Below, one piece after another: positions 8,825 through 50,576 of a DNA stretch of 64,000 nucleotides. Within the stretch, counting starts at the first letter, position 1; each line of letters begins with the position of its first letter. The stretch is from Alphaproteobacteria bacterium. Its GTDB lineage: Bacteria; Pseudomonadota; Alphaproteobacteria; Micavibrionales; Micavibrionaceae. Made by a program: the position numbers and the translations under genes. Below the pieces are notes generated by a model. The model ran no database searches. It was not told the origin of the DNA and saw nothing but the letters and a program-made list of their open reading frames with translations. The stretch spans positions 310,001 through 374,000 of the forward strand of contig JAJFGS010000013.1 of assembly GCA_021775995.1 (NCBI GenBank), in the 5' to 3' direction.

Positions 8825-8851
8825 GTTATCAACTCTTATATAGGAGCCAAT

Positions 8852-9400: not shown

Positions 9401-9438
9401 TGACAAATAGTGCGCTATTGTCGTAATAAGGCGGAATA

Positions 9439-9960: not shown

Positions 9961-9981
9961 AAGGATTTAGGGAGTTTCATA

Positions 9982-10377: not shown

Positions 10378-10378
10378 T

Positions 10379-10588
10379 GTCATTGCGAGGCAACGCCGAA
10401 GCAATCCACTTATGCGTAGTAACCCCGTATTTATTACGGGGTCTGTTAAATACAGGTACAAGACCCCGCAACAAGTGCGGGGTTACGGTATTAGGCGGGG
10501 TTACGGTATTAGGCGGGGTTACGGTATTAGGCGGGGTTACGATATTAGAATGGATTGCCACAGTCGCTATCGCTTCTTCGCAATGACG
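10379..10588. repeat. Composite repeat island with CATTGCG arms
   Basis: Outer arms 10379-10408 and 10551-10588 are imperfect inverted repeats with the same CATTGCGA and CAATCCA / TGGATTGCC ends as the element at 3225-3310. Inside are ACCCCG/CGGGGT palindromes and a four-copy tandem repeat. The right arm ends in TGACGAGG, which also serves as the likely ribosome binding site of the kinase gene at 10601. Confidence 0.75.
10477..10548 (+). repeat. Four tandem copies of an 18-bp unit
   Basis: Unit GCGGGGTTACGGTATTAG repeats at 10477, 10495, 10513 and 10531; the first three copies are identical and the fourth differs by one base. There are no spacers, so it is not a CRISPR array. It is probably a replication-slippage expansion of a palindromic element. 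Confidence 0.9.
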
Positions 10589-10600
10589 AGGATTTGAAAA

Positions 10601-11623: not shown

Positions 11624-11632
11624 AGAAATTAG

Positions 11633-12871
<1,239 letters not shown>

Positions 12872-12888
12872 TAAAATATTTTAAAGCG

Positions 12889-14127
12889 TTATTCGCTTAA
12901 ACGTAAGAAAGAGAAAATACTTCTTTTCCCTTTTTTCTTTTGTTTGGCTTGCGTTGTTTTTTTGTCGCGGTTGTTCACAAGAATATCACAAACATGATCT
13001 AACTCATCTGCATGTTCTTCCATGATACCTTCCGCAAAATTGCGAAGTTTTTTGAAATTATTATCCGAACCATCGTCAATTTGTAAATTTGGATGGTCGG
13101 GGTTTCTGCTATCAATTGTTCGGTTGAACATGTGCAGATTATCACCCATTTCATGAACAAAACTGTGTGATAGGGCACTTTCCGAAGAATGAAAGAAAAT
13201 ATTTATGAGTGGCAAATCATTGACAGGGTCAACCACGCCAAGTGATCCATATTTATTCCATTTTTCACGTTTAATAGAGCGGTTGGTATAACCGGTTCCT
13301 AAACCAACCATGATAAGTTTTTGGTGAGGATCGAGTTGTTTTTTGAGGGCGCCAAAATAGGACACGGCAGGATTGTCAAAAATATTTCCATCAATGCCAG
13401 CATATTCTTTTGTGCCGCGATCATCGGGCCAGCCAATAGGGAAGTGGTGACAAGGGAAGTATGTTGGTGCAGCGCAACTCGCCATGACAGCATCATACAT
13501 TGAGATGTGTGGAGTCTTGTTGTTCTTTTGTTTTTCATTGTGAAGTTTCATATTGCGTAACCAGACGGCGTGTCCTCCTTCGCGCGCATAATGTTGCATG
13601 GCGCGTGTAGAAATATCCCTGCTGTAACCACCGGGTGTACTGTTACCGTCAATGCTATAGAAAGGAATGACAACACTTTTTAAGCTATCCGCTAGTTTTG
13701 CGTTTCCGTATAGGGCGCGAAGGGCCTTACCAAGGTGGTCAGGGTTATAATGACCATGTTTGAAAATACTTTCCAGCTGGCTTATTTTTGTGAGTCTATT
13801 ATTAAAGTCGTGCAGCAATCCACGTAATTCACGAAAGCGATCTTGAGGGAAAATATTATGCCCCTCACGTTCATAAAAACGGACGAGATGACGTGCCCGA
13901 TATTTACAGCGATGTGGATGATCAGGGTGTGGAAGCGTTAGGGCGGCATTTAAAATGGCACCTGTTGAAGGGCCACAAAAGATATCGACCATTTCACTCA
14001 TTCTTAAACCCGTCTTTTTTTCTATACGAGTCATTATATGAGCGGGGATAAGGCCGCGCAGACCACCGCCATAGTTAAATAAGGCAATAACGGGTTCTTT
14101 ATCTTCTTCTGGAATTATAACAGTCAC
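12889..14127 (-). CDS. Patatin-like phospholipase
   Basis: A 412-residue predicted lipid acyl hydrolase with a Ser-Asp dyad. The oxyanion-hole segment NYGGGLRG is near residue 19, the nucleophile elbow GPSTG (GxSxG) near 53, and the catalytic Asp lies in GIDGNIFDNP near 240. There is no signal peptide, so it acts in the cytoplasm or is exported by another route. The C-terminus is basic (KKTTQAKQKKKGKRS). The gene stands alone, behind the non-coding RNA and its terminator. Confidence 0.88.
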   Translation of the reverse strand: MTVIIPEEDKEPVIALFNYGGGLRGLIPAHIMTRIEKKTGLRMSEMVDIFCGPSTGAILNAALTLPHPDHPHRCKYRARHLVRFYEREGHNIFPQDRFRELRGLLHDFNNRLTKISQLESIFKHGHYNPDHLGKALRALYGNAKLADSLKSVVIPFYSIDGNSTPGGYSRDISTRAMQHYAREGGHAVWLRNMKLHNEKQKNNKTPHISMYDAVMASCAAPTYFPCHHFPIGWPDDRGTKEYAGIDGNIFDNPAVSYFGALKKQLDPHQKLIMVGLGTGYTNRSIKREKWNKYGSLGVVDPVNDLPLINIFFHSSESALSHSFVHEMGDNLHMFNRTIDSRNPDHPNLQIDDGSDNNFKKLRNFAEGIMEEHADELDHVCDILVNNRDKKTTQAKQKKKGKRSIFSFLRLSE

Positions 14128-14206
14128 GGGAATATGTTTCTGGCAAGCTATTGATTCTACAAAGTATATTATAATTGGATTACGCAGAAAATACTATCTC
14201 ACAGAT

Positions 14207-14245
14207 AAAAAAAACCAGGCTGCTTAATTAAAAGCTGAGCCTGGT
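14207..14245 (-). terminator. Intrinsic terminator of the non-coding RNA
   Basis: On the minus strand the perfect 8-bp stem ACCAGGCT / AGCCTGGT (14238-14245 and 14214-14221), with a nested AGCTT/AAGC helix in the loop, is followed by eight consecutive T. Confidence 0.9.
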
Positions 14246-14376
14246 AAGTTGAACAGGGAGGTTTGCGTCTTGATATTCAGCTCAGCTTGTAAACAAGAGA
14301 ACCGAATAGACGCAGGATCTGTGAAATCCTCACTTAGCTCTCATCCCCCTATAACAGGAGATAATTGCGTAAGTTA
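14207..14376 (-). ncRNA. Free-standing structured RNA, family unassigned
   Basis: About 170 nt with its own consensus promoter and an intrinsic terminator and no ORF. On the minus strand it can form a long central hairpin closed by TGCGTCT / AGACGCA, an outer AGGGGG / CCUCCCU pairing, and a side hairpin (AGGAT...ATCCT or GTGA...TCAC) in the 5' half of the internal loop. Size and the stem-bubble-stem outline are compatible with 6S RNA, but I cannot confirm the family from sequence. It lies between the patatin-like gene and a hypothetical gene. Confidence 0.6.
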
Positions 14377-14382
14377 AGAGGG

Positions 14383-14411
14383 GTTATAGCCGTATGAATT
14401 TATGATGTAAA
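14383..14411 (-). promoter_or_regulatory. Sigma-70 promoter of the non-coding RNA
   Basis: Minus strand -35 TTTACA (14411-14406), a 17-base spacer and -10 TATAAC (14388-14383). It predicts a start near 14376. Confidence 0.75.
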
Positions 14412-14489
14412 CAGCAAAATGTGCTTAAAAAGGATTTTTTTCACTTTTGTAAACAGTTAATTTTTAATCAAAGAGGTTTTACCGCTAGG

Positions 14490-14528
14490 CTATTGATTTA
14501 AAAGAGATTCTTTGAATAATTTAATGCG
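14490..14528 (-). pseudogene. Remnant of a duplicated LysR gene 3' end
   Basis: The minus strand reads RIKLFKESLLNQ followed by stop, matching the C-terminus RIKLLKDYLLDQ-stop of the LysR gene at 15086. Similarity continues past the stop: 14470-14528 aligns with 15067-15124 with one small gap. The remnant overlaps the end of the 156-residue gene in a different frame. It is best explained as the scar of a tandem duplication whose second copy was lost or replaced. Confidence 0.75.
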
Positions 14529-14991
14529 TGTTAGTAAGAGCGGGGTGTAGTTTTTTGGTGGCGGTGTTAGAGACGGTTTCTGTAGCAGGCGCGGGACGTG
14601 TGGCTTTGAGTTTCTCATGCGCTTCATGGAGCGCGGTGATGTGAGTGTCTATTTCTTCACAGATAGAAGGGTAATTCTCTGGATGGTTTAGCGTTGGATA
14701 GAGAAGCTCTTTTGTTTTTTCAATCTCTGCGGCCACCTTGTTGATAAAATGCTCGCTGTTGATGAGGCCTTCCGTGTCTAGTTTTAGGACTTTGATTGCG
14801 CTATCAACGGCTCCTGAAGCACCCTGATAGACACCATCCAAATGCCCGTTATATTTTTCTTTGGCTATAGCCTGCACACACCCGAGGTAAAATTTTGTAT
14901 GGTTTATAGAATCTAAAACAGCACAATTTCCGATAGAACTTTCTTCAAAAGCATCGATCAGTTTTATGTGCTGTCCGTATTTAGTAGCCAT
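14521..14991 (-). CDS. Hypothetical helical protein, 156 residues
   Basis: ATG at 14991 with AGGAG upstream (CAGGAGATTCAA). The protein is soluble and helical (GHLDGVYQGASGAVDSAIKVL, FINKVAAEIEKTKELL) with a Thr/Pro/Ala-rich tail. I recognise no family. Its last codons and stop (LTNTH) are formed by sequence of the LysR remnant, so the gene's 3' end was created by the rearrangement. It lies just downstream of LysR on the same strand. Confidence 0.65.
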   Translation of the reverse strand: MATKYGQHIKLIDAFEESSIGNCAVLDSINHTKFYLGCVQAIAKEKYNGHLDGVYQGASGAVDSAIKVLKLDTEGLINSEHFINKVAAEIEKTKELLYPTLNHPENYPSICEEIDTHITALHEAHEKLKATRPAPATETVSNTATKKLHPALTNTH

Positions 14992-15085
14992 TTGAATCTC
15001 CTGTATATCTCTTTTTCATAGTAATTCTTTTCTCTTGAAAGTCAAGTTTAAGGGCGAGCTTTGTTCAAAGAAGTTTTACGCTAAC

Positions 15086-15958
15086 TTATTGATCTAAAAG
15101 GTAATCTTTGAGTAATTTTATGCGTGAAGAATCCTTCCTGCTCTCCATATAAACAAGGTACATGGTGACGGATGGATGTTTCATGTCGTCCAAACAAGTT
15201 TCGACCACTTTATCCCCTTGAAACAGATATTCCGGTAAGGCGGCGAGGCCATATCCATTCTTAACGGCTTCATAGATACCAAACTGCGAATTCATTTGAA
15301 TGAGTTTTGAATTGTTTTGCATCGGTACATTTGCTTTGCGGAGCAACCAGTTTGGATCTTCATAAGGTGCCGTCAGGTTTGCAGGGTAGCCGATTAAATG
15401 GTGTTCTTTTAAATCTTTGGCTGTTTTAGGGACGCCATGTTTTTTGAAGTAGTTCTTACTGCCGCAAATATGAAAGTCAACTTTACCCATAGTGTGGTAC
15501 ATAAGATCATTTTGCTCTGGCTTGTAAAGACGGATGGCAGCATCTGCTTCACGCATTGCTAAGTTCAAAATACGGTCATCAAAAATGAGGCTAAGTTGTA
15601 AGTCCGGGAATTTATCATTTAAATCGGCCAGTTTTGGTACGAGCCATGTTGAACCCAAAAAATCAGGTGCAGTGACGCGTAATGATCCAGTAGGTTTGAA
15701 CTTTGAATCTGCTAAGCGTCCTTCAATTCTGGAGAGCTTACCAAAGATATCACGCGCAGCGTCACTCAGTAGTTCACCGGCTTCGGTTAAAACCAATCCG
15801 CGTGCATGACGTTGAAAAAGCTTAACGTCTAAACTTTCTTCAAGAGCGCTTATTTGTCTTGAGATTGCAGATTGACTTAAATTAAGGGTGGTTCCAGCAT
15901 GGGTAAAGCTACCCGCTTCGGAAACGATGTGAAAAGTGCGTAGTTTATCCCAATCCAT
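15086..15958 (-). CDS. LysR-family transcriptional regulator
   Basis: A 290-residue regulator. The winged HTH lies at about 1-60 (FTHAGTTLNLSQSAISRQISALEESL), followed by a linker helix and a substrate-binding domain from about 90 (GSLRVTAPDFLGSTWLVPKL). The length is normal and no residues appear missing. Downstream of trxB in the same orientation with a 104-base gap, a neighbourhood often seen in alphaproteobacteria. The inducer and targets are not indicated by the sequence. Its 3' end is duplicated at 14470-14528. Confidence 0.93.
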   Translation of the reverse strand: MDWDKLRTFHIVSEAGSFTHAGTTLNLSQSAISRQISALEESLDVKLFQRHARGLVLTEAGELLSDAARDIFGKLSRIEGRLADSKFKPTGSLRVTAPDFLGSTWLVPKLADLNDKFPDLQLSLIFDDRILNLAMREADAAIRLYKPEQNDLMYHTMGKVDFHICGSKNYFKKHGVPKTAKDLKEHHLIGYPANLTAPYEDPNWLLRKANVPMQNNSKLIQMNSQFGIYEAVKNGYGLAALPEYLFQGDKVVETCLDDMKHPSVTMYLVYMESRKDSSRIKLLKDYLLDQ

Positions 15959-16062
15959 TTAAAAATCCTTTTTCTTTGTTCCGTGACGTCGTTGCCACGT
16001 TTCTAAAATATTAAAATATTCGTCGTCGCTTGCGCCTTGTCACAAAACAAAGGCAAACGATT

Positions 16063-17049
16063 TTATTCTGCTGCCTCATTTTGTTGATTGTTTGCTTCTA
16101 AATTTGCGATGTATTTGTCTGCTTCTAGAGCGGCCATACATCCCATACCTGCCGCCGTTACGGCTTGGCGATAAATTTTATCTTTTACATCCCCTGCGGC
16201 ATAGACACCAGGAATGTTGGTGGCAGTGGAATCTGGTGCGGTGATGAGATAACCTTCCGCATCCATTTCAAGTTTATCCTTAAAGAGTGATGTAGCGGGA
16301 TCATGACCGATGGCAACAAAAACACCCTCTAAATCTGTTTCTGTGATATCGCCTGTTTTGTTATTTTTAGTACGTAAGCCTGTGACACCAGGGTTATCAC
16401 CTTGCCCAACTTCAACACCAAGAATTTCTTCGACTTCATTGTCCCAGAGAATTTCAATCTTCGGATTATCGAAGAGGCGTTGTTGCATAATTTTTTCGGC
16501 ACGTAGTTCATCGCGGCGGTGAACCAGTGTTACCTTCTCACATAAGTTAGCGAGGAAGAGAGCTTCTTCAACGGCAGAGTTACCACCGCCAATGACAGCC
16601 ACACGTTTATTACGAAAGAAAAATCCATCACAAGTGGCACAAGCACTGACACCCATGTTCTGAAATTTTTCTTCGGAAGGGAGACCAAGCCATCGTGCCT
16701 TTGCCCCCGTTGAAATAATAATAGTATCAGCGGTGATTTCCGACCCTGAATCTAATTTGGCTTTAAAAGGTTTTGAATTGAAATCTACGTCAGTCACAAT
16801 GTCATGCATTGTTTTTGTTCCAACATTTTCAGCTTGCGCTTTCATTTGTTCCATTAACCAGGGCCCTTGAATAGGATCAGCAAAGCCAGGATAATTTTCT
16901 ACTTCCGTTGTGATGGTTAATTGACCACCCGGTTGTAATCCAAGAACGAGAATAGGGCTGAGGTTTGATCGGGCGGCATAAACGGCAGCTGTATAACCTG
17001 CAGGACCGGAGCCGATAATAAGAACTTTTGTATGTAGTTTTTCAGACAT
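16063..17049 (-). CDS. trxB: Thioredoxin reductase
   Basis: A 328-residue NADPH-dependent flavoprotein that reduces thioredoxin in the cytoplasm. It has the FAD motif GSGPAGYTAA at 13-22, the redox-active C137-A-T-C140, the NADPH-binding GGGNSAVEEA with HRRDELRA, and the C-terminal FAD segment GVYAAGDV. The short C-terminal extension is Asn/Glu rich. It lies downstream of the ELM1-like gene with a 67-base gap. Confidence 0.97.
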   Translation of the reverse strand: MSEKLHTKVLIIGSGPAGYTAAVYAARSNLSPILVLGLQPGGQLTITTEVENYPGFADPIQGPWLMEQMKAQAENVGTKTMHDIVTDVDFNSKPFKAKLDSGSEITADTIIISTGAKARWLGLPSEEKFQNMGVSACATCDGFFFRNKRVAVIGGGNSAVEEALFLANLCEKVTLVHRRDELRAEKIMQQRLFDNPKIEILWDNEVEEILGVEVGQGDNPGVTGLRTKNNKTGDITETDLEGVFVAIGHDPATSLFKDKLEMDAEGYLITAPDSTATNIPGVYAAGDVKDKIYRQAVTAAGMGCMAALEADKYIANLEANNQQNEAAE

Positions 17050-17116
17050 AGTTTTCCTTGGTTTGAATATAGTTTTATTGTTTTAGGGTAGTTGGAGCCA
17101 TGCGTAAAGGGCATGA

Positions 17117-18106
17117 CTAAAGCTTATCCCAATTTTCTTTTATGGCATGGGCCACTTTTTGAGCATCATGAAGGGGTTCGTAAGTCCAAGCTTCTAAGTT
17201 ACCTGTAAAATTACGGGTTACGTCGATTTTGTTAAGATGATCATAGAGGCGATTAAAGCGGGGAGAGCCTCCCTCTAGATTAACCATATAAACGGGCTTG
17301 CCTGTTGTGCCTGCATCGGAAAGCATAGAGACACTATCAGAGGTGACGATAATATAATCCGCCCATGCTAACATACCCAAATATGGGTTTTGACCGTTTC
17401 CGCTCCATATAAAATTTTGATCTTTGGTCAGAGCATCTTGTATCATTTTTAGATTTTCTTCGCCTGTGCGGCGGGAGGTTGTCACCATAAGGCTGGCGTC
17501 GAGATTTGATAACTGGTTGATGAGTTGATGGGTTATAGAATTTGTAAGTTTATGGGTACGGCTGTTACCCCCAATCAAGACGGCAACACGAGGTGACTTC
17601 ATTGATTCAAAAGGGGGTGCAAAATCTTGTTTGGCTTGGTTCAGTTTGTCTTTTGTTAATTTATTGGGGGCGCCATCGGTTACAATAACATTTTGTCCCC
17701 TTAATTTATCGTGAAAGGGAACAGCAACAAGATCAAATTGTGTAGCGGATATTTTAGGGTCTTGAATGTGAACGGTAAATGTTTTGCCGCCACTTTGTTT
17801 TTTTATGTAACGCGAAGCAGCAACGGATTTACGTCCTGAAGTGATAAGAATGTCTGGCCATGTAGAGTCTTTGGGTGGTGTGAGGGAAGGAGAAAAACTA
17901 CTGGTTGTTTCAAAGCCAAGCCAAGGTGAAAATGTTTTCCATGGTTGTCGTAAGCCAATTTGTTTTATAATGGGGTTAAGACCAAGCGCGTTAGCCACGC
18001 CAACACATTGATTTTGCGTGCCAATCATACCTTCGGTTATAATCCAGCAGGTTATTAAACCTATTTTATTTGTAGGGTTTTCTAATAAAGTACTTGAGTT
18101 CGTCAT
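17117..18106 (-). CDS. ELM1-like (DUF1022) protein
   Basis: A 329-residue protein. The N-terminal signature TCWIITEGMIGTQNQCVGVANALG and the sequences TSGRKSVAASRYIKK, TDGAPNKL and VLIGGNSRTHKL match the mitochondrial-fission ELM1 / DUF1022 family, which has a glycosyltransferase-B-like fold. The bacterial function is not established. VTSDSVSMLSDAGTTGKPVY resembles a nucleotide-sugar site, which suggests transfer to an envelope glycan, but that is inference. It is predicted soluble and divergent from the Lrp-type regulator. Confidence 0.85.
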   Translation of the reverse strand: MTNSSTLLENPTNKIGLITCWIITEGMIGTQNQCVGVANALGLNPIIKQIGLRQPWKTFSPWLGFETTSSFSPSLTPPKDSTWPDILITSGRKSVAASRYIKKQSGGKTFTVHIQDPKISATQFDLVAVPFHDKLRGQNVIVTDGAPNKLTKDKLNQAKQDFAPPFESMKSPRVAVLIGGNSRTHKLTNSITHQLINQLSNLDASLMVTTSRRTGEENLKMIQDALTKDQNFIWSGNGQNPYLGMLAWADYIIVTSDSVSMLSDAGTTGKPVYMVNLEGGSPRFNRLYDHLNKIDVTRNFTGNLEAWTYEPLHDAQKVAHAIKENWDKL

Positions 18107-18174
18107 GGTGGAACTTTATACCTTATTTTCAGGGTGTAAAATAATAAACTTACCAAATTAGGACATAATATTTC

Positions 18175-18651
18175 ATGAAACGCATTAAGCTTGATAAAAT
18201 TGATCGAAAAATCTTGCGGGATTTGCAGGCCAATGGACGTATTACAAATGTCGAACTATCAAAAAATGCAGGTATTTCTGCACCACCTTGTTTAAGACGG
18301 GTTCGTGCCTTAGAAGAAAGTGGATTTATTAAGGGATATTACGCACGGTTAAGCGCAAATTCTTTGGGGTTTGGCTTAAGCGTTTTTGCGTTGATTAAGT
18401 TAGTATCCCAAGCGGAGGCTGATTTAAAAAAATTCGAAGAATCGTGCCTTGAGTTGGATTTAGTCAGAGAATGCCATATGTTATCAGGAGAAGTTGATTT
18501 TCTTTTGAGGATTGTTGCGAAAGATTGGGATAGTTATCAGCAATTTTTAACGGAAAAATTAACTGGTCTAGAGAACGTGACATCCGTTAAAACAATGCCG
18601 CTTGTCCGCTCTTCGAAGCAAGATACTGGCGTGCCTATCTCAGTAGAATAG
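18175..18651 (+). CDS. Lrp/AsnC-family transcriptional regulator
   Basis: A 158-residue protein with an N-terminal HTH (LDKIDRKILRDLQANGRITNVELSKNAGISAPPCLRRVRALEESG) and a C-terminal RAM effector domain (VRECHMLSGEVDFLLRIVAKDWDSYQQFL). RAM domains bind amino acids in this family, and GEVDFLL is the usual ligand-contacting stretch. It is transcribed divergently from the ELM1-like gene, 68 bases away, so it may autoregulate from that gap. The specific ligand is unknown. Confidence 0.93.
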   Translation: MKRIKLDKIDRKILRDLQANGRITNVELSKNAGISAPPCLRRVRALEESGFIKGYYARLSANSLGFGLSVFALIKLVSQAEADLKKFEESCLELDLVRECHMLSGEVDFLLRIVAKDWDSYQQFLTEKLTGLENVTSVKTMPLVRSSKQDTGVPISVE

Positions 18652-18656
18652 CTATA

Positions 18657-18685
18657 TTGACATAATTGCCTATTTAGGTTACTAT
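18657..18685 (+). promoter_or_regulatory. Sigma-70 promoter of the His-rich lipoprotein
   Basis: Perfect -35 TTGACA at 18657-18662, a 17-base spacer and -10 TACTAT at 18680-18685. It starts five bases after the Lrp-type gene stop. Confidence 0.7.
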
Positions 18686-18713
18686 CTTCCGAAATTTAAG
18701 GGAAGGATATTTC

Positions 18714-19340
18714 ATGCTTGAAGATTTTGCATCTGCCGCTCGTAAGGTCGTAGCCGTAGGATTAATTTTTGCTACTGTTGCGTCGTTGTCAGCTTGCTCA
18801 ACCATTCCTACAGCTGGAGGGAGTCATATTGTTCACCGTGATTTTAGTAATAAAAAAGCGCCGTGTTTATCAGAGTATAATACTCGCACAGCTCGTTTAA
18901 AAGTATCAATAACATGTACTGGCCCCCAAGTTTCAGCAGCAAAAGCATTTTATAACGTTAAGGGTGTGCAAATTATTAGGGAACATAAAGGTAGTCGTTT
19001 CCTTGGTACCCATCGGAGAGTGCCAGTTGTTCCAGCGGATTCAGAAAAGCATGTGCCTGATTCAGAACCTGTGCACACACATGTGCCTCGTTCTCATTCA
19101 GAAGAACATGAACATTCAGCGGATTCAGAAAAGCCTGTACATATACCTAGTCCTACAGGCCCCTCTAAACCAGTAGAAACAAAACCTTCTAAAGCCTATG
19201 GAGGGCATAATCATCCTCACAAGCACGATGACTTAGTAACTGGAGAAACTTATACTCACAAACATCCTCACCCAAAAAAATTACCACATGTTCATTTAGA
19301 GCCTTTAAAGCTAGAGCCTTTAAAGCCTTTAAGGCCTTAA
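18714..19340 (+). CDS. Histidine-rich lipoprotein
   Basis: A 208-residue exported protein. A hydrophobic signal ([17 protein letters not shown]) ends in lipobox LSAC with the lipidated Cys at 28. Residues 45-90 form a small domain with two Cys. From about residue 102 the tail holds 17 His in HxH, HP and HK clusters ([26 protein letters not shown]) and ends in [10 protein letters not shown] repeats. Such tails bind Zn, Ni or Cu in other proteins; a metal-buffering role in the periplasm is inference. It has its own promoter. The stop overlaps the greA stop by four bases on the opposite strand. Confidence 0.8.
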
Positions 19341-42586: not shown

Positions 42587-43543
42587 CTAATTCAGTTTAT
42601 TTTTTAAAAAAGTTACGAGTGAATTTTCATCTTTAAAATTTAGAGCAATAGGGAGTGTTTTTATTTTGTCTTTTACAGCTTTAGGCAAGCGAACATGGTC
42701 TTTTTCAGTCGTGATGAGTTGTGCGTCTTGTGCGTTAGCTTCTTTTAATAAGGCATCAATTTCAAATTGGGTATAAAGATGATGGTCGGCGAATTCATGC
42801 CAGCCGACAATGTTGGCTTTCATATCTTGTAGCGTTTTTAGAAGCTTTTTGGGACGACCCAAGCCCGCAAAGGCTATATATTTTCCCGTTAGGTTATTTT
42901 CTATAGGCGTGATATCGGCTTCAAATACAGTTTTGTCAGATTGAAGCGGGCGACCAATACAAATCACAGCACCGATTTTGGGTAAAACACGTGATAGAGG
43001 TTCGCGTAAAGGGCCAGCAGGAATGGTTTTACCATTACCAAAATCAACGGCACGATCAATCACAAGAAAAGTTATATCTTTGACGAGACTGTTATTTTGA
43101 AGACCGTCATCCATAATGATGAGGTCTGCGTCTGCTCTTTCGGCTAATTTAGCGCCATCCGCACGATTGGTTGCGACAATGGTTGGGGCGTGTTTGGCAA
43201 GAAGGAGGGCTTCATCACCAACCTGTGCGGCATTGTGTTTTTGCGCATCAACAAGGCTAGTAGAGTTGCTTTCTCCGCCATAGCCACGGGTTAGGAAATA
43301 GGGATTTTTATATAAGCCGCTTTCTTGAATGGTTTTCATGAATGATAAAGCCGCAGGGGTTTTACCGCTACCACCAGCCACGGCGTTGCCTATGCAAATA
43401 ACAGGAATTGAAGATTTATAAGGAGATGATTTTAAACCTTGATTGATGACGTGACCAATTTGATAGAGCCATGCAAATGGCAAGAGGGCGTAAGCCCGTA
43501 AGCCCGCTGGTTGATACCAAAATTCAGGTGTTTTAAACGGCAT
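42587..43543 (-). CDS. lpxK: Tetraacyldisaccharide 4'-kinase LpxK
   Basis: 318 residues from the ATG at 43543. It phosphorylates the lipid A precursor at the inner membrane. The Walker A is GNAVAGGSGKTPAA near 60; LTRGYGGE, VGDEALLLA, and IIMDDGLQN are LpxK signatures. The start overlaps the end of waaA by 11 bases, so the chosen ATG gives translational coupling; a longer frame to 43630 would lie wholly inside waaA and adds no conserved sequence. Confidence 0.94.
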   Translation of the reverse strand: MPFKTPEFWYQPAGLRAYALLPFAWLYQIGHVINQGLKSSPYKSSIPVICIGNAVAGGSGKTPAALSFMKTIQESGLYKNPYFLTRGYGGESNSTSLVDAQKHNAAQVGDEALLLAKHAPTIVATNRADGAKLAERADADLIIMDDGLQNNSLVKDITFLVIDRAVDFGNGKTIPAGPLREPLSRVLPKIGAVICIGRPLQSDKTVFEADITPIENNLTGKYIAFAGLGRPKKLLKTLQDMKANIVGWHEFADHHLYTQFEIDALLKEANAQDAQLITTEKDHVRLPKAVKDKIKTLPIALNFKDENSLVTFLKNKLN

Positions 43544-44831
43544 CAGAATTTCTTTTATTTTCAAGAGGTGTGAGTAGGGGGGTAAGATGTTCCATGACAC
43601 GATTGATAACATCAGTTTTGGCCGTTGCAAATTTTACAGCACGCGCAATGGCTTCGGTTCTAACCTTTTCATCTTCCAATAAAGTGCGGAGAGCTTTTAA
43701 GAGCTCTGCCTTATCATCCATTTGATGTGCAGCATTCACATAGAACATTTCATTAAATAATTGTTGTTGGAATTGTATATTTGGTCCAGTCAGAACAACG
43801 CAACCCATTTGGGCTGCTTCAATTGGGTTGTGACCGCCACCACCATCATCACTAAAAGATCTTCCAATGACAGCGATATCCGTTAATTTATAAAACAACC
43901 CTAACTCACCGAGTGTGTCGGCAACATAGATTCCCGTGTCGCTTTGTGGCAGAGTTTTATTGTTTCCACGAAAGATGCTCGTCATCTTCATCATGTCACA
44001 AGTTTTCTTAATATCGCCACGGCGTTCAGGGTGACGTGGTACAATGATGGTAAGAATATTGGGGTATTTTTGTACCAAAGCAGCGTGGATACGACAGGCA
44101 AGAAGTTCTTCCCCTTCATGGGTGCTGGCAAAAACCCAAGTGGGACGACCACCAATTATGTTTTGAATATCTTGTAATTCATTATCATTATAAGGCAGGG
44201 GAGCAGCACTAAATTTTATATTATCTGTGGTGACAACATTTTCTGCCCCAAGATTTTTAAAGCGTTTTTCATCTGTTGGGGTTTGAGTAAGAATAAGGTT
44301 GAATGTTGAGAGCAGTTTTTTTGCACTGCCAGAAAAAATATTCCAGATATTATATGATTTGTTAGACAAGCGCGCATTGACCAATGCCGTGGGAATGTTT
44401 CTTTGTTTTATAGCACTCAACATGTTTGGCCAAAGTTCTGATTCCATCCAAAGGATTAAATCGGGTTGCCAATGATTTAAAAACTCTGTTGTCCAATTTG
44501 GGTGATCTAAAGGGTAAAATTGGTGAAAGGCGTTTTCGGGTAAACGTTCGGCCATGAGTTGGGCAGAGGTAAGGGTGCCGCTGGTGACCAAAAATTTTGC
44601 TTCTGGCATTTGTTTTGAAATAGTACTTATGAGGATAAGAGTTGATTGAGCCTCACCAACGCTGGCGGCATGAAGCCATATAAGCACTCCTTCAGGGCGT
44701 GGGATGCTTGGTTGCCCACGACGCTCATTTATACGGCTTTCGCTCTCTTTTCCATGCTTAAGACGGAAGTCTAGGAGCTTATTGAACAGCTTTTCACATT
44801 TACTAGTTAATTTTTTATAGTAATCCAACAT
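43533..44831 (-). CDS. waaA: Kdo transferase WaaA
   Basis: A 432-residue CMP-Kdo-dependent transferase (KdtA) adding Kdo to lipid IVA. N-terminal GT-B half contains the catalytic Glu in ASVGEAQS near 60, followed by LVTSGTLTSAQLMAERLPE and PDLILWMESELWPNML; the C-terminal half has the sugar-nucleotide site GGHNPIEAAQMGC. It first in the operon with lpxK and lpxL. The N-terminus has a Lys-rich amphipathic region instead of a clear anchor. Confidence 0.95.
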   Translation of the reverse strand: MLDYYKKLTSKCEKLFNKLLDFRLKHGKESESRINERRGQPSIPRPEGVLIWLHAASVGEAQSTLILISTISKQMPEAKFLVTSGTLTSAQLMAERLPENAFHQFYPLDHPNWTTEFLNHWQPDLILWMESELWPNMLSAIKQRNIPTALVNARLSNKSYNIWNIFSGSAKKLLSTFNLILTQTPTDEKRFKNLGAENVVTTDNIKFSAAPLPYNDNELQDIQNIIGGRPTWVFASTHEGEELLACRIHAALVQKYPNILTIIVPRHPERRGDIKKTCDMMKMTSIFRGNNKTLPQSDTGIYVADTLGELGLFYKLTDIAVIGRSFSDDGGGGHNPIEAAQMGCVVLTGPNIQFQQQLFNEMFYVNAAHQMDDKAELLKALRTLLEDEKVRTEAIARAVKFATAKTDVINRVMEHLTPLLTPLENKRNSDAV

Positions 44832-44916: not shown

Positions 44917-45315
44917 GTGAAAAACCCCTCTCATCCCCCATCAAAACCCTCAAAAGAACAGGGGCCTAAACCAATAACGGCAAAACGCCAAAAAATACTG
45001 GATAGCGCGATGGCGCAGCTTAGAAAAACCAGAGCGCAGATGGATCCAAAAATATTAGGGAAAATTAGGAGTCTTGTTGAAAGTAATCCTAAAATTATGA
45101 AGATATTGGGTGTTGATTCAGTGCCGCAAGAAGAACCGAAGGTAGAACCTGTAAAAGAAACTAAGCCAGCAGCTGAAGTTCAGGTATCTCAAGAAAATAG
45201 CGGGGCTGAAAAAATAGATCAGGCCAGAAATATGGAAGTGATGGCAAAGCTAATGGCGTTAAAACCATCTGAAATAGAAAATATTAAAGCTGTGTTGTTA
45301 AAGACGCAGGATTAA
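44917..45315 (+). CDS. Hypothetical basic protein, 132 residues
   Basis: The start is GTG at 44917 with AAAGGA upstream. The N-terminus is Pro/Ser/Lys rich and disordered. A helical core (KRQKILDSAMAQLRKTRAQMDPKILGKIRSLVES) is followed by a Pro/Glu/Lys linker and a final helical segment (MEVMAKLMALKPSEIENIKAVLL). There is no membrane segment. I recognise no family. Its end overlaps the converging exported-protein gene by four bases. Confidence 0.7.
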   Translation: MKNPSHPPSKPSKEQGPKPITAKRQKILDSAMAQLRKTRAQMDPKILGKIRSLVESNPKIMKILGVDSVPQEEPKVEPVKETKPAAEVQVSQENSGAEKIDQARNMEVMAKLMALKPSEIENIKAVLLKTQD

Positions 45316-46229
45316 TCACATCCACCACCAGCCGCAAATGTACAGCCAGGATTTGAGCAAACTCCATCTTCATGGGCAGGGCCAGCCGCAAGTACAACTT
45401 GTACCCCCGTCAATATGCCATCAGTGCATTCTCCGGGAACTGTTCTCTCAAAAACATCAAGAAAGATTTCACCTAAAGGTGTTTGAAATTCGTACAGGAC
45501 TTCGCCTTGGTTTTCAGCAAATTCTATTTGCTCGGCCCAATCGGTCAGTTCGCTTTCGCTTTCACATTCCATGCCCTCAGGATATTGTCTCGTATCTGTA
45601 ATCTCGTCGTATCCTGCGATATCTTCGCAGTTGTCCTGGTTGTCGCCACACGCAATTGTTTCAAACGGATAATAACCATCTTTATCAACAAATTCTTCAT
45701 TGTGGACAAAGTTAAGACATTTCGCCACTCTCCAAACATCAGCCATGACCGTACATTCATATGGGAGCGGATTATCTATGACTGGTTCGAATTCTGTTCC
45801 AGGAGCTTCCTCTAATCCGACATGTTCGCCACGCCCTCCTAGAAGGCTATGTTCAAAATTATCATCTCTATAGATATCTAATGCTTCATAAACTATATTT
45901 TCTATGCTGGTGTCTAAGGCATAAGGAGAGGAGCGCTCAATTATCTGTTCTCCGAAGTATTCTGTGTGTGTAAAAATATCTCCGGCTGGCCAAGCTGCTA
46001 CATTCGCCCAACGATCAAAACATGTATATTCTAAAACACTATCTGCTTTAAATATTAAGTTTTGATTCTGCATGATTTCACGTTCTGATTCTAACCATGC
46101 ACGGGATTGCATTTGGCTGTAAAATTGTGGATCACAGGGTTGTGGGGCAATATCTTGTGCCCAAGCTGGTTTTTGATCTATTTGAACACCAATTAAAGCG
46201 ATAAATGATAGTAATAGTAGTTTATGCAT
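45312..46229 (-). CDS. Exported Cys-rich protein, cassette paralog A
   Basis: 305 residues. The signal peptide MHKLLLLSFIALIGVQID...WAQ is almost identical to that of the next gene upstream. The mature part shares a block with the 238-residue protein at 47441: M-x3-A-x-LE-x2-RE-x-[LI]M, then IxKADSVLxYxCF, then a xESL/EALxxYxxxNFxHxxLxG element, and VWxxAKCxNF. It ends with the tri-Cys tail C-S-N-P-G-C-x7-C. AGGA precedes the ATG. It is predicted periplasmic or surface exposed; family and function unknown. Confidence 0.75.
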   Translation of the reverse strand: MHKLLLLSFIALIGVQIDQKPAWAQDIAPQPCDPQFYSQMQSRAWLESEREIMQNQNLIFKADSVLEYTCFDRWANVAAWPAGDIFTHTEYFGEQIIERSSPYALDTSIENIVYEALDIYRDDNFEHSLLGGRGEHVGLEEAPGTEFEPVIDNPLPYECTVMADVWRVAKCLNFVHNEEFVDKDGYYPFETIACGDNQDNCEDIAGYDEITDTRQYPEGMECESESELTDWAEQIEFAENQGEVLYEFQTPLGEIFLDVFERTVPGECTDGILTGVQVVLAAGPAHEDGVCSNPGCTFAAGGGCD

Positions 46230-46295
46230 ATTTTATATCCTCACTAGTATGATATCTCAATTTATAGTCTGATAGCAAACAACTGTTTATATTTA

Positions 46296-47444
46296 TTACT
46301 CTAGACATGCTTCCCCTTTATTGGGCATACACCCTTGATTTGTACAGAAAGTATCTGGAAATAGTTCAAGCTCTCTAAATACTTGCTTATTGACTTCTAC
46401 ATTCGTTGGTTGAGGGTCTATACAAGCTTCTTCAAAAGATAATTCCTCCATATAACTATTTACGGGGTCAAAAATGACTTGCTCACCTTGGGCAACTTCA
46501 ATCATGGGCTCGTTTATACAAGTTGTCGTGTCGCAAGGGGGAGCAACCAATACGTTAACTTCACCACCGCCACCGCCAAAAAAGTCACCAAATAGAAAAC
46601 CGCCATTAAATGCAAAGCCGCCGCCTGTTAGGGCATTGACAAAATCATTGGTAGCATTGCCTAGGGCACCGACAGCCCCGCCTGTTATCTCATTGGCAAA
46701 TTCAGTGGCCGCCTCGGTAGCGGCATCGGTAGCATCGTTTATTACGCCCTCGGCAAATTCATTGGCAGCGTTTGTTATGTTCTCGGCAACTTCATCAATG
46801 CTTGTGGGTAAGCCATCAGCAAATTCAGTGGCACCATCTACAAAATCCGTTGCGGTTCCTAGAACATTCCCTGCCGCGTCTTCAAGTGCTCCTGTGTCCA
46901 GACCTACGTCATTTAGTCCAGGGATTTGATTTGCAAGATCTGTAGCACCAGCGACAACATCACTTCCTCCAGATATAAGACCGCCTGCTGCGCCTGTAAG
47001 GCCTCCAGCAGCAGCGAGTACACCATTCACATCGCCCCCCGTAACGGCAGTAACAAGATCTTGAGCGCCAGTTCCAAGATCTCCTATACCAGCTTGAATT
47101 TCCCCTGCTGAAGTTTGGATACCATTTGCCGTGTTGAGGGCATCTCCTGCTAGTTCTTCTGCTACGCCTTGTGCTAGTTCTGTTGCTTGATCAACGGCTC
47201 CTCCATTGACGAAATCTCCCGCTTGTTGAACGACTCCTTCAGCGGCGGTAACAGTTGCGTCTGCCTGATTTGTAATTTCTTGGGCTGCTGCTTCAAGACC
47301 AGTTGCTTCAGCAAGAATACCTCCGACAACTTGTAAAGCTTCAGTTTGTGCCCAAACTGGCTTATGAGTTAGTTGAGCAGCAATTAAAACAATAAATGAT
47401 AGTAATAGTCGTTTATGCATACTGTGTTTCTTTATCTTCATCAT
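46296..47444 (-). CDS. Exported Ala/Gly-rich repetitive protein of the cassette
   Basis: 382 residues (ATG at 47444 overlaps the upstream stop by four bases; a second ATG at 47420 is where similarity to the next gene's signal peptide begins, so the true start could be either). After the signal peptide the core from about 35 to 290 is Ala/Gly/Thr/Asn rich with periodic amphipathic helices (ATDFVDGATEFADG, NAANEFAEGVINDATDAAT), followed by a Gly/Phe stretch. The C-terminal 80 residues hold six Cys including C-T-N-Q-G-C-x7-C. Probably a secreted or surface structural protein; function unknown. Confidence 0.7.
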   Translation of the reverse strand: MMKIKKHSMHKRLLLSFIVLIAAQLTHKPVWAQTEALQVVGGILAEATGLEAAAQEITNQADATVTAAEGVVQQAGDFVNGGAVDQATELAQGVAEELAGDALNTANGIQTSAGEIQAGIGDLGTGAQDLVTAVTGGDVNGVLAAAGGLTGAAGGLISGGSDVVAGATDLANQIPGLNDVGLDTGALEDAAGNVLGTATDFVDGATEFADGLPTSIDEVAENITNAANEFAEGVINDATDAATEAATEFANEITGGAVGALGNATNDFVNALTGGGFAFNGGFLFGDFFGGGGGEVNVLVAPPCDTTTCINEPMIEVAQGEQVIFDPVNSYMEELSFEEACIDPQPTNVEVNKQVFRELELFPDTFCTNQGCMPNKGEACLE

Positions 47445-48157
47445 AGTTCACACGGCATGCTTGGCGGAAACTCCCGCGGGTCAAAGTCAACTAGATCTTC
47501 AAATCTATAAAAGATATCTGTCCCATCAAAATTTTTACATTTGGCAGCCTGCCAAACGCTAGCCATGTCGTAACATAACCCAACATCAGCAAGTTCAGTT
47601 GTACCTGACAATACAATGTGGCCAAAATTTTCAAGCATATAAGCCTCTAAAGATTCAAAGACGACAAGGGTGACGGCTTCTTCCAAAGAGGTGGGAGATA
47701 AAAGTTCAAAGACATAACCTGCTGTGTAATCAAAGCCAGCACCTTCTACAATTTCGTAATATTCCGGATCAGTCGGTATGTGTAGTTGTGTAAGAGAAGG
47801 TTCGTAGATGGCCATAGAGGTTTGTTCACCTTCTATTAGAGCGATATCTCTTTCCGCCCATTGTTCGCCATTACTAAATATTGGCGCAATATTAGCGTTT
47901 GTATTATTCATTTCCTCTGTAAAGCAGCTATATTGAAGGACAGAGTCTGCCTTAACGATATATCTCTTATTCATGAGGTCTTCACGCCGTGTTTCAAGAG
48001 CTGCTTGGTTTACCATTGCGGTCCAAGTGTCAGTGGCACAACCTTCAGAACTTTGAGCGTATGATGGCGCAGAATAGGCAATAAGGGTGGCTCCAACCAT
48101 AAACAGGCTAAAACAGAATAATTTCAATAGGTTATAAAATGTTGGATTTTCTACCAT
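47441..48157 (-). CDS. Exported Cys-containing protein, cassette paralog B
   Basis: 238 residues. The signal peptide is FCFSLFMVGATLIAYSAPSYAQ. The mature part is a paralog of the protein at 45312: ALETRREDLMNKRYIVKADSVLQYSCF, FESLEAYMLENFGHIVLSG, and VWQAAKCKNF. It lacks the tri-Cys tail of the other two members and is shorter at the C-terminus. It begins the three-gene unit, with AAGGAT before the ATG. The family is unrecognised; adjacent paralog and overlapping start of the next gene show they work together. Confidence 0.75.
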   Translation of the reverse strand: MVENPTFYNLLKLFCFSLFMVGATLIAYSAPSYAQSSEGCATDTWTAMVNQAALETRREDLMNKRYIVKADSVLQYSCFTEEMNNTNANIAPIFSNGEQWAERDIALIEGEQTSMAIYEPSLTQLHIPTDPEYYEIVEGAGFDYTAGYVFELLSPTSLEEAVTLVVFESLEAYMLENFGHIVLSGTTELADVGLCYDMASVWQAAKCKNFDGTDIFYRFEDLVDFDPREFPPSMPCEL

Positions 48158-48236: not shown

Positions 48237-48680
48237 TTATTTTATCTCGTAAACGAAGGAAAATGGGTTCCAATAGGCGGTTGAAAAGGAGAAACTATTG
48301 CTTTTATTGCCATAAATTCTTAAGTTGCGGACACCATATTCATTACCTTCTTCCGCAACAATATTATGAGCCTTAAAATCTCCTATTAATATGGGTTTAT
48401 AGTGGGAGAGGGCTACAATTTTATAAGAGCAAAAGCTTGATATAACACAGAATTTTGGCGAATTCGGCTTTACTATATATTCATTTATAAAATCGTCATT
48501 AAGATCAATTTTTGCAATGAGATAAGGAATATCTGTTGTATCAGTTTGTTGATGGATAAAGTTAACAACAAATTTTTCCTTATAGCTGTGAGGTTCTTTG
48601 AAGTTTAAGGCCTCAAGAGCATAAGCGGGAAGACAAATAAATAGAGCAGGTAGTAGTAATAAAAGAGCGCGTTTTATCAT
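48237..48680 (-). CDS. Exported hypothetical protein, 147 residues
   Basis: The signal peptide MIKRALLLLLPALFICLPAYA gives a mature protein of about 126 residues. It contains one Cys pair (KFCVISSFCSYK) and a C-terminal beta-rich stretch ending FSFSTAYWNPFSFVYEIK. DLNDDFINEYIVKP resembles a small calcium-binding-like acidic loop of the FG-GAP/VCBS type, but I cannot call this. No family recognised. It lies between the exported cassette and the DUF3126 gene on the same strand. Confidence 0.7.
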   Translation of the reverse strand: MIKRALLLLLPALFICLPAYALEALNFKEPHSYKEKFVVNFIHQQTDTTDIPYLIAKIDLNDDFINEYIVKPNSPKFCVISSFCSYKIVALSHYKPILIGDFKAHNIVAEEGNEYGVRNLRIYGNKSNSFSFSTAYWNPFSFVYEIK

Positions 48681-48945: not shown

Positions 48946-49752
48946 TTAAGACGCTTTTGTTCTTAAATCAAGGGCTGTGGGTAAAGAATTCTCTAAACCC
49001 TGCTGTGAATCACGATGGCAGTCATTTGCCAGTTCTTTTCGGTCGTTATAATTGGCTGCGGGCCGTGTTGAGTGAAAGTTAATGAGAACTTCTACTCCCT
49101 TTGATTGTCCTAGATCCCATAGGTGAGGCAGCATCGTCATATCCGCATACCAAGCGTATAAGTCATTGTCTTTAGCACTTATCACGTCATGACCATCCGT
49201 TTTTTGGATTGAGATTGTAAAAGGTTGAATAAGGAGCTCGTCTCTTAAGTCTTTGCTTAAGAAAAGGTCAAAAATACTTGATTTAAAAGGAAGAACGCTC
49301 AGGCCTTGTGTGGATGTGCCTTCGGGGAACAATATTAGAGAGCGATCTTTTTCTAAGGCGCTTTTGATATCTTCTATGCATTGGGCGGCAGCTTCACGGT
49401 TGCGTTTGATAAAGACCGTTTGTGTCAAAATTGCCAAAATACCAAATATCGGCCATTTTTTAACATCTGCCTTTGAAATAAAAGTAGCAGGAAGTGTTGA
49501 GCCAAAAACAGGAATATCAATATAAGATAAGTGGTTGCCGACAAAAACGACATGGTTTGTAACGTCGGGTGTGCCCTCGATGTGAATTTTGATGCCGTAA
49601 ATTTTGCAGACAACGCTGTTATATATTTTGGGAAAAATATAAAATTTTCGTGTGCTGCCAAAAAGAAAAGCGCTTAATGCTTGAATGGGAATACTAATTA
49701 ATGACCAGATAATAAAAGCAGTAAGTTTTAAGATGGAGATAAGAAAGCGCAT
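48946..49752 (-). CDS. olsA: 1-acylglycerol-3-phosphate-type acyltransferase (OlsA-like)
   Basis: 268 residues, PlsC family. The N-terminal membrane anchor is FIIWSLISIPIQALSAFLF; the catalytic HxxxxD motif is GNHLSYIDIPV near 73 and the substrate site FPEGTS lies near 147. It starts three bases after the GNAT-type gene upstream. PlsC-type enzymes paired with an OlsB-like N-acyltransferase make ornithine lipid from lyso-ornithine lipid; I therefore favour OlsA over a general lysophosphatidate acyltransferase. Confidence 0.85.
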   Translation of the reverse strand: MRFLISILKLTAFIIWSLISIPIQALSAFLFGSTRKFYIFPKIYNSVVCKIYGIKIHIEGTPDVTNHVVFVGNHLSYIDIPVFGSTLPATFISKADVKKWPIFGILAILTQTVFIKRNREAAAQCIEDIKSALEKDRSLILFPEGTSTQGLSVLPFKSSIFDLFLSKDLRDELLIQPFTISIQKTDGHDVISAKDNDLYAWYADMTMLPHLWDLGQSKGVEVLINFHSTRPAANYNDRKELANDCHRDSQQGLENSLPTALDLRTKAS

Positions 49753-49754: not shown

Positions 49755-50576
49755 TTATTGTGTTCCAATCATTTTTTCACCGGCGGGAATAACTTTGTTG
49801 GTTTTACGTTCATAATGTTTGACGTATTTTTCACGAACGAGAGCAGAGGGTAGGACAATACAAACATCAATAGAATTCCATTGTCTATCAATAAAAGCGC
49901 CGTCACCAATATAGGCCCCTAATCGAAGGTAGCCTTTTAAAAGAGGGGGCATGCTCATAAAAACTTTTTTGGCGTTGAGGTCATCTTTTTTATGAAGATT
50001 CATTTCTACATATACTGATGGGAGAGCTTTTGGGCATATCTCTGGTGGGGCGAGGTGGTAATGATGTAGATAGGCTAATATTTCTGAAGCTTTATCGACA
50101 TTTGTTCCTGGAATACTAGCGCAACCAAACATAAGGCCTATATTGTTATCTGCAACATAATGGGCAATGCCCTCCCACAGCTTTTGTAAAACGGGACGGG
50201 TGCGATAAGGTTCTAAAACACAGGAGCGTCCCAACTCTAATAGATCTTTATTGTTATTTAAAAGAGGTTGAATATCATATTCATCACTGGTGTAGAATTT
50301 ACCATACTCTTCGGCGACTTTTTGTTTTAACAGTCGGTATGTCCCAATGATTTGGTCTGGCCCTTCGGGTAAGTCGTTATCAATAACAACCAGATGATCT
50401 GTTATGGGGTCGAACTCATTAATGTCGCGTTTTTCTTTTAGCATTTCCTCATTGGGCGTTGCGCCATATTCTTCATAAAATACTTTATAGCGCAAAGCTT
50501 GAGACGCTTTGATTTCGTCTTCGTTTTGCGTTAAGCGCACCTGAATTTTATCAGGATCATAGGGGAGTTGAGCCAT
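49755..50576 (-). CDS. olsB: Ornithine N-acyltransferase OlsB-like
   Basis: 273 residues of the GNAT-like acyl-ACP N-acyltransferase family (OlsB). The N-terminus EDEIKASQALRYKVFYEEYGA, the TDHLVVID / IIGTYRLL strands, LLELGRSCVLEPYRTRPVLQKLWEGIAHYV and MFGCASIPGT are family signatures. It attaches a 3-hydroxyacyl chain to ornithine as the first step of ornithine-lipid formation. It is followed three bases later by olsA. Substrate assignment rests on this pairing. Confidence 0.85.
   Translation of the reverse strand: MAQLPYDPDKIQVRLTQNEDEIKASQALRYKVFYEEYGATPNEEMLKEKRDINEFDPITDHLVVIDNDLPEGPDQIIGTYRLLKQKVAEEYGKFYTSDEYDIQPLLNNNKDLLELGRSCVLEPYRTRPVLQKLWEGIAHYVADNNIGLMFGCASIPGTNVDKASEILAYLHHYHLAPPEICPKALPSVYVEMNLHKKDDLNAKKVFMSMPPLLKGYLRLGAYIGDGAFIDRQWNSIDVCIVLPSALVREKYVKHYERKTNKVIPAGEKMIGTQ

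Follow-up and report, generated by a model that had tools for sequence, protein, structure and literature searches.

The three adjacent minus-strand genes A, B and C, located in the analyzed stretch of 64,000 nucleotides (the window), are members of a single protein family, FAM (a name coined here), whose proteins are acidic, rich in Cys and provided with signal peptides. The upstream FAM gene is split in the window: A carries the N-terminal module of the family and B the C-terminal one. With a probability of about 0.5, FAM may be read from its sequences as a complex of the envelope or the cell surface, exported by the Sec route and bearing cargo domains that can be exchanged, where A and B would re-form the upstream protein.

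Two FAM modules and a split gene

The features of the three genes are the following.

47441..48157, minus strand: gene A, 238 aa; signal peptide and FAM N-module only; upstream half of the split FAM gene
46296..47444, minus strand: gene B, 382 aa; signal peptide, Ala/Gly-rich insert and FAM C-module
45312..46229, minus strand: gene C, 305 aa; whole FAM of the downstream type (N-module and C-module)
46311..46535, minus strand: FAM C-module of B, residues 304-378; profile match E=9.8e-9
46539..47345, minus strand: Ala/Gly-rich acidic insert of B, residues 34-302
47346..47430, minus strand: signal-peptide-coding stretch of B, duplicate of that of C (82% over 85 nt)
46155..46239, minus strand: signal-peptide stretch of C, duplicated in B (82% over 85 nt)

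A preliminary description had proposed three adjacent genes, the first pair overlapping by four bases, all with signal peptides. The ORF coordinates confirm the arrangement, and a crude, home-made rule (Lys/Arg followed by a hydrophobic stretch and a site of small residues) is positive for A, B and C, as it is for 117 of 124 relatives, versus 193 of 534 neighbouring genes of at least 150 aa. Acidic composition and predicted signal peptides run across the family; export of the three proteins by the Sec route is plausible, given their putative signal peptides.

The N-module is helical and marked by KADSVLxYxCF, with KxDSVxxxxCF as membership motif; the C-module is a Cys-rich segment of about 80 residues, recognized by TGxxV...C...GC...C. 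Both modules are present in C, which covers positions 5-257 of the 269-position profile of the order; A covers positions 5-199. The paralogy of A and C, already proposed along with a shared pattern, is borne out by four aligned blocks (LETRRE/LESERE, IVKADSVLQYSCF/IFKADSVLEYTCF, NFGHIVLSG/NFEHSLLGG and VWQAAKCKNF/VWRVAKCLNF), and chance does not account for their similarity (phmmer on 1,608 ORFs, E=1e-14).

B had been taken as a second, unrelated type of protein, with a low-complexity body and a six-Cys C-terminus. Composition and Cys count are as described: the six Cys all lie within residues 304-380, in the C-module or just after it. The separation into two types does not stand, because the C-terminus of B, which reads TNVEV where the motif has TGxxV, is homologous to that of C and supplies the part that A lacks. 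The profile match was obtained with 99 proteins, none from the genus of the window, and none of 1,000 shuffled sequences matched at E<=10. In several relatives the upstream protein is unsplit and runs on into the C-module (L135, 587 aa; L139, 297 aa; L141, 511 aa; L156, 548 aa). A and B being a single polypeptide in these relatives, they probably assemble with each other. The proposal of a secreted or surface multi-protein structure is partly retained: secretion is plausible from the signal peptides, and the multi-protein part is supported indirectly, by the unity of A and B in relatives.

B and C carry duplicate signal peptides: the repeated stretch covers each of them, and identity drops to background directly past the signal peptide. 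The following stretch of B contains 19% Ala and 18% Gly, no Lys or Arg, and has a net charge of -39; its tandem repeats are weak, with spacings of 12 nt and 57/66 nt. This stretch is a variable insert. In the nearest relative, L132, B is only 128 aa long and lacks it; together with the C-terminal homology, this shows that the picture of two paralogs flanking an unlike, repetitive protein is not right. In L133 and L134 an M23-like stretch is found at the insert site, with HLD replacing HxH (motif evidence only; a Pfam scan of the two L133 proteins gave no match, M23 included). L138 does have an Ala-rich insert, but at a different place. In L133, the crude rule finds no signal peptide in the B protein as called.

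The preliminary description knew no family for these proteins, and this holds in all the libraries searched. A and C match nothing in Pfam and NCBIfam, and B gives insignificant matches only (E 0.28 and worse); in PHROGs there are weak matches to the low-complexity part of B (best E 0.0076). When 55 C-type proteins were compared with Pfam at E<=1, 13 families appeared, each matched by one or two of the proteins (best E 0.0035); a profile of the C-type proteins found no PDB chain better than E 0.36. For C and A, structure modelling reached fair quality only (pLDDT 73.7 and 72.9). Foldseek with these two models gave nothing below E 4, and its searches of PDB (both models) and BFVD (model of C) taken together gave no match below E 1; VIA-align, run with the model of C on 20 chains, gave nothing usable, with one row at Z 2.7. 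In the libraries searched, the FAM modules appear to lack a trustworthy match in Pfam, NCBIfam or PHROGs. An EF-hand, suggested by a DGFxxF stretch of the N-module, was rejected: a canonical loop is found in 5 of 55 proteins (0.4% in shuffles), and Pfam EF-hand matches are absent.

Distribution and genomic neighbourhood

FAM is found in 121 of 142 genomes of the order, presumably Micavibrionales, and in none of the 381 sampled elsewhere in the class, and so looks confined to this order in the samples searched. Among 58 related genomes, relatives of A occur in 36 and relatives of C in 41; those of B are reported in 9, several being low-complexity matches. A tandem pair of whole FAM genes is the usual form in the family of the window: outside its genus, at least two whole genes are present in 36 of the 42 complete loci. 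Co-occurrence of the three genes in relatives is seen in the three-gene form of the genus of the window, and elsewhere FAM mostly has two genes. The window and loci L131-L194 together have 127 FAM ORFs, of which the FAM tree includes 90; the motif and length filter removed 37, among them A of L133 and the C-module-only proteins. Carriage by plasmids or viruses was discarded, with no plasmid match for C and no confirmed relative of A in viral_contigs.

Micavibrio aeruginosavorus, an epibiotic predator with a poorly known attack machinery, belongs to the order. In its strain ARL-13 there is a single whole FAM match (G452:C1:1552088-1553020), and neither a split pair nor a 147-aa gene (see below) is present within the 3 kb read around it; the A/B/147-aa part is therefore not needed for predation as such. 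One gene of a nearly universal family may make a small target in ARL-13. In the window, the split represents bacterial gene fission caught in the act, the detached half sharing with its neighbour a signal peptide whose two coding stretches are still 82% identical. Any functional import of either is our inference.

The genes surrounding the cassette are the following.

48237..48680, minus strand: 147-aa protein with a DLNxD...E loop; signal peptide by eye; frequent partner of the upstream FAM gene
44917..45315, plus strand: convergent 132-aa ORF that starts with GTG and shares 4 bases with the end of C
48946-49752, minus strand: OlsA-like acyltransferase; NCBIfam Ols match below the curated cut-off
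49755-50576, minus strand: OlsB-like GNAT; NCBIfam Ols match below the curated cut-off
43533-44831, minus strand: waaA (Kdo transferase), by domain match
42587-43630, minus strand: lpxK, by domain match

The gene for the 147-aa protein is present in 40 of the 43 complete loci with at least two FAM ORFs and in none of the five with one (Fisher p=3e-5, a statistic that ignores shared ancestry). The convergent ORF has no match in Pfam; small ORFs on the opposite strand occupy its place in many relatives. A scan for promoters and terminators gave fewer sites than were found in shuffles.

Possible roles of the family

According to the preferred reading, that of an exported complex with exchangeable cargo, FAM proteins would be disulfide-bonded in the periplasm after Sec export. 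A and B would reassemble there, non-covalently or by disulfide, to give a counterpart of the unsplit upstream protein, which would pair with C and the 147-aa protein in a hetero-complex, in the periplasm or at the cell surface. The conserved modules would serve as a scaffold or anchor; the cargo or working part would be the segments that vary, whether N-terminal or inserted: an M23 peptidoglycan peptidase, a right-handed beta-helix, repetitive helices or, in the window, the Ala/Gly-rich acidic stretch. In Micavibrio-type predators, the complex may act at the cell envelope, either on the cell's own wall or at the contact with prey.

FAM proteins might instead be periplasmic or outer-membrane helpers in the assembly of Kdo/lipid A and of ornithine lipids, co-inherited with the olsBA-like genes, waaA and lpxK. 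The gene order speaks for such a role: FAM lies between the olsB/olsA-like genes and waaA in 48 of the 64 named loci, and in 48 of the 48 where both flanks are present; the flanks of the window are confirmed by domain; and in L084, which belongs to a different family of the order, a single small ORF separates a FAM array from waaA. Yet plain vertical inheritance may explain a conserved order, other FAM copies adjoin htpG (L078, L080, L180, L194) or lie elsewhere (L083, L088, L089), and fusions with M23 and beta-helix domains are ill-suited to lipid chemistry. We regard this role as unlikely.

A and B might also be what is left of an upstream gene that broke and is decaying, C alone being functional. 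Split and short forms within the genus point in this direction, as do L161, where the upstream gene has come apart into two pieces and lacks a part, the five complete loci that, like ARL-13, have no upstream gene, and B of L136 and L140, with only 4 Cys versus 6 in the window. Decay is nonetheless an improbable explanation: both halves are open frames in 8 of 10 genomes of the genus (of the other two, the contig of G007 ends at this place and G003 falls outside the count), the crude signal-peptide rule is positive for 8 of 8 A and 7 of 8 B proteins, identity between the A proteins of the window and of G005 is 59%, and B shares its signal peptide with C.

Dot/Icm-type secretion genes are present in nearly all Micavibrionales genomes, including that of M. 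aeruginosavorus ARL-13. In the parts considered, the ARL-13 genome analysis (PMC3189940) reports no type IV system, and PMC10482364 contains no mention of one in Micavibrio. A literature search on Micavibrio and type IVB secretion found no report, though one may exist elsewhere.

FAM proteins would, on a further hypothesis that has little probability, be outer or accessory parts of this Dot/Icm-type (type IVB) system, or work beside it. The link runs through the 'YHPSE' proteins, a second exported family seen in Micavibrionales only, whose arrays adjoin DotI in the four genomes looked at. In G032 a FAM gene lies within such an array, and one array member of the genome of the window has an Ala/Asp-rich N-terminal stretch to which a search with B gives a weak match (E 0.0088). 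But G032 is the sole genome showing this linkage, with its best DotI match about 290 kb from the array, and the genome of the window has FAM on contig 5 and the secretion genes on contig 3. Co-occurrence was dropped as evidence of function: DotI is present in 119 of 121 FAM-positive and in 19 of 21 FAM-negative genomes, so that the two show no association (p=0.10), and since nearly every genome of the order has both, the comparison is uninformative.

A broader proposal, held with equally low expectation, combines FAM, its DLNxD...E partner and the 'YHPSE' family in an apparatus for predator-prey contact specific to Micavibrionales, alongside a Dot/Icm-type injector that the published ARL-13 genome analysis would have missed. 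FAM would provide a Sec-exported, disulfide-bonded docking complex, with wall peptidases, beta-helix binders and repetitive acidic spacers as cargo; in the genus of the window, one docking protein would have become two subunits by fission and capture of a signal peptide.

Finally, a cassette in which the repetitive protein B is a structural fibre, capped by the paralogs A and C, fits three co-directional genes with signal peptides and a low-complexity B, but is very improbable, since the repetitive part is missing from B of the nearest relative, the M23-like stretch stands in its place in L133 and L134, and the Ala-rich insert of L138 lies at another place.

Comparison with known systems

As to Dot/Icm (type IVB) systems, DotI occurs in the same genomes as FAM, and the 'YHPSE' proteins, another exported family, lie beside DotI; FAM differs in that no T4BSS domain is matched by A, B or C. 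The loop of the 147-aa partner, which we take to resemble the calcium loops of FG-GAP/VCBS-type proteins, is of the DLNxD...E type in 55 of 59 family members, as judged by a loose pattern; the partner differs in having a single loop, and the copy of the window has no match in Pfam or NCBIfam.

Other likenesses come from the upstream FAM proteins, although in most FAM members scanned, and in all three proteins of the window, no cargo domain is recognized. Pfam comparison of 55 upstream-type proteins found M23 in four, Beta_helix in two, and NosD, Pel9A-like beta-helix, DUF1565 and MgtE_N (E 2e-9) in one each. EnvC and NlpD are degenerate regulators of the LytM type. Several upstream relatives have an M23/LytM domain (PF01551) ahead of the FAM modules, which themselves match no M23 profile; A, B and C of the window have no PF01551 match. 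The domain scores 40.8 bits in L135, versus a cut-off of 28.7, and the zinc-ligand motifs HxxxD and HxH are found by regex in 7 of the 127 FAM ORFs, A of L133 included, and in L141 by a second regex. The right-handed beta-helix (PF13229), absent from the window and seen in 2 of the 55 scanned proteins, is fused to the upstream FAM protein of L166 in the same polypeptide (100 bits); in L143, a separate 1,259-aa gene directly upstream is read as a beta-helix protein.

Three probably exported proteins of one family

The preliminary description had placed three minus-strand reading frames in the window, the first two overlapping; they are present in the sequence, with four bases shared by A and B:

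47441-48157, minus: gene A, 238 aa
46296-47444, minus: gene B, Ala/Gly-rich, 382 aa
45312-46229, minus: gene C, 305 aa
48237-48680, minus: the "147-aa gene", signal peptide by eye, one DLNxD...E loop

The proposed paralogy of A and C is supported by phmmer (query A retrieves C at E=1e-14 among 1,608 ORFs) and, as anticipated, neither has a family in Pfam or NCBIfam up to E=10. B yields only insignificant matches there (E 0.28 and worse), all to its low-complexity part. B had been taken for a separate type of protein, a view that has to be abandoned: it joins the family of A and C, here called FAM, defined by a helical N-module (KADSVLxYxCF) and a Cys-rich C-module of about 80 residues. B residues 304-378 are matched at E=9.8e-9 by a C-module profile whose 99 source proteins all come from loci of other genera, a choice made against circularity. 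The profile was run on 678 ORFs (genus loci and window) and on 1,000 shuffles of B's end: among the former, exclusively proteins from FAM loci are matched; among the latter, none at E<=10. Weak matches are the middle-gene proteins of two congeners, L138 (E=4e-4, an Ala-rich insert breaking up its module) and L136 (E=0.003). B and its counterparts are also pulled in by an iterated profile seeded with A and C (window and 20 fetched loci). On the order profile (269 positions), A covers 5-199 and C 5-257; in relatives, A-type halves end near position 206 of 298, and B-type modules mostly begin near 200. Judged by these alignments, A, B and C are one family. A search of the window's genome (2.0 Mb, 15 contigs) found no extra FAM copy outside the locus.

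Splitting, insertion and a shared signal peptide

Outside the genus, at least two whole FAM genes are found in 36 of the 42 loci with both flanks present, and a single gene in 5. In the remaining one, L161, the upstream gene (A/B position) is broken in two and lacks part of the module (3840-5095); waaA of that locus is likewise in two pieces, so that the break may reflect an assembly error. Among whole upstream homologs, the closest are those of L135 (587 aa), L139 (297), L141 (511) and L156 (548). Of the 10 genomes of the genus, 8 have a split locus (window, L132, L133, L134, L136, L137, L138, L140); of the other two, one contig stops at the locus (G007) and one is known by a partial match only (G003). 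An N-module tree of 90 sequences, holding 7 of the 8 A-halves of split genus loci, needs two changes of split state, and the starred branches force two: the gene may have been split twice, or split once and rejoined once. Because relatives carry whole, unsplit homologs, A and B would be expected to form one complex.

The repetitive part of B is, by comparison with relatives, a variable insert. Residues 34-302 contain 19% Ala and 18% Gly, carry a net charge of -39 and have no Lys or Arg; the Lys/Arg-free stretch of 324 residues is the longest among the 55 called window genes, the next being that of A (102). In the nearest relative, L132, B consists of signal peptide and module alone (128 aa), while L133 and L134 have, at the insert position, a stretch M23-like by motif, with HLD replacing HxH; no Pfam domain was found in the L133 protein. 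In the L138 middle gene (5053-5922) an Ala-rich insert lies within the C-module, a position different from that in B, which we read as a probable independent gain of low-complexity sequence. Long repetitive inserts are also found elsewhere in FAM (L145, 1,009 aa; L162, 1,053 aa). The family is generally acidic: median net charge is -0.056 per residue, versus 0.0 in 600 neighbouring proteins, and 106 of 124 members are below -0.03.

Genes B and C of the window are 82% identical over 85 nt, corresponding to the signal peptide and its start: aligned from the ATG, 65 of 78 positions are identical, and identity falls to background directly past that stretch. In the nearest relative (L073/L132) the two signal peptides are dissimilar by eye. 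Probably C was the source of B's signal peptide, though it may have passed from B to C instead.

Distribution and neighbourhood

With a profile of 18 diverse FAM members, the family was found in 121 of the 142 genomes searched from the order, presumably Micavibrionales (87 of 98 good genomes, 45 of 54 genera). Among 385 genomes sampled from the class, matches are four members of the window's taxonomic family and none of the 381 others; in a phylum sample (398 genomes, narrower profile) the window's genome is the sole match. Micavibrio names also carry the lineage Pseudobdellovibrionaceae, Bdellovibrionota, taken for an older placing. M. aeruginosavorus ARL-13 has one FAM match, a whole gene; in the 3 kb read around it, the split pair and the 147-aa gene are absent, and the strain apparently manages without any of these three genes.

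Either waaA or olsB is found in 61 of 64 loci; 2 adjoin htpG and 1 lies elsewhere. Single FAM genes adjoin htpG in L078, L080, L180 and L194, another conserved FAM locus. In 48 of the 61, waaA is accompanied by olsB or an olsA-like gene, and in all 48 FAM lies between them, with at least two FAM ORFs in 43 and one in 5. The 147-aa gene is present in 40 of these 43, versus none of the 5 (Fisher p=3e-5, ignoring shared ancestry). In L133 (4157-4747) and L134 (4197-4805), longer members of its family (196 and 202 aa) are placed between genes A and B. By domain, the window flanks encode LpxK, WaaA, DUF3126, an OlsA-like acyltransferase and an OlsB-like GNAT, the NCBIfam Ols matches being below curated cut-offs. 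For two other families of the order, an RsmD-type gene (domain check for L084) adjoins FAM in all four loci read (L084, L085, L091, L092); in L084, waaA is also one small ORF from FAM. In L089 a lone FAM gene is one gene away from a Phage_lysozyme and CHAP protein.

Domain fusions and type IVB secretion

Domain fusions are the best clue to FAM function. L135 carries a fused M23 peptidase domain above the Pfam cut-off; in L166 (3148-6567) a right-handed beta-helix is fused to the upstream gene, and in L143 (966-4745) a beta-helix protein, itself non-FAM, lies beside it. Among 55 proteins scanned, that of L143 included, M23 is found in 4, Beta_helix in 2, and NosD, a Pel9A-like beta-helix, DUF1565 and MgtE_N in one each. 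One regular expression picks out zinc-ligand motifs in 7 of 127 proteins; a second one does so in L141. In most members, A, B and C included, no cargo domain is recognised. In the structure models (pLDDT 73.7 and 72.9) the N-module is helical and the C-module is small, with two strands at pLDDT >90; no usable match was found in PDB or BFVD. FAM proteins may assemble, after export, into a complex in the envelope or at the surface, in which FAM modules would hold exchangeable working domains.

A second exported, Cys-containing family ("YHPSE") occurs in arrays, as in the window's genome (L203, C3:242000-261000):

5730-13623: "YHPSE" array
10241-12304: 687-aa array member, with a long Ala/Asp/Glu-rich N-terminal stretch resembling B's insert; weak Pfam match to SMBP (E 0.007)
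13845-18714: type IVB genes, DotI (219 bits) and DotH (258 bits), TrbI-like adjoining

Its motifs are 'AHKDYHPSE...C', 'KRSVAxNSF' and 'PSYYAQMEILTKK', and the proteins scanned gave no Pfam family beyond weak matches. Arrays are also found in L204, L205, L206, L082 and L221. The array lies between flgK/flgL-like genes and type IVB genes (flgK, flgL, DotG and like names being assigned by eye unless a Pfam match is cited), and adjoins DotI in all four genomes examined (L203-L206); in G031 one "YHPSE" gene is about 2 kb from DotI. A single-protein search retrieves 4 of the 385 genomes in the class sample, identical to the four found with FAM. The two families were seen physically linked in L082 alone (genome G032), where a FAM gene (9025-9939) lies within the array, beside a flgK-like gene.

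Across the order, 138 of the 142 genomes have PF11393 (DotI/IcmL), versus none of 14 control genomes: almost all appear to encode a Dot/Icm-type (type IVB) secretion system. The co-occurrence of FAM and type IVB genes is uninformative. In section 10 of the ARL-13 genome paper (PMC3189940), a type III or IV system is described as without evidence; the DotI match in that genome (G452:C1:2432226-2432765, 249.6 bits) contrasts with the statement made there on type IV.
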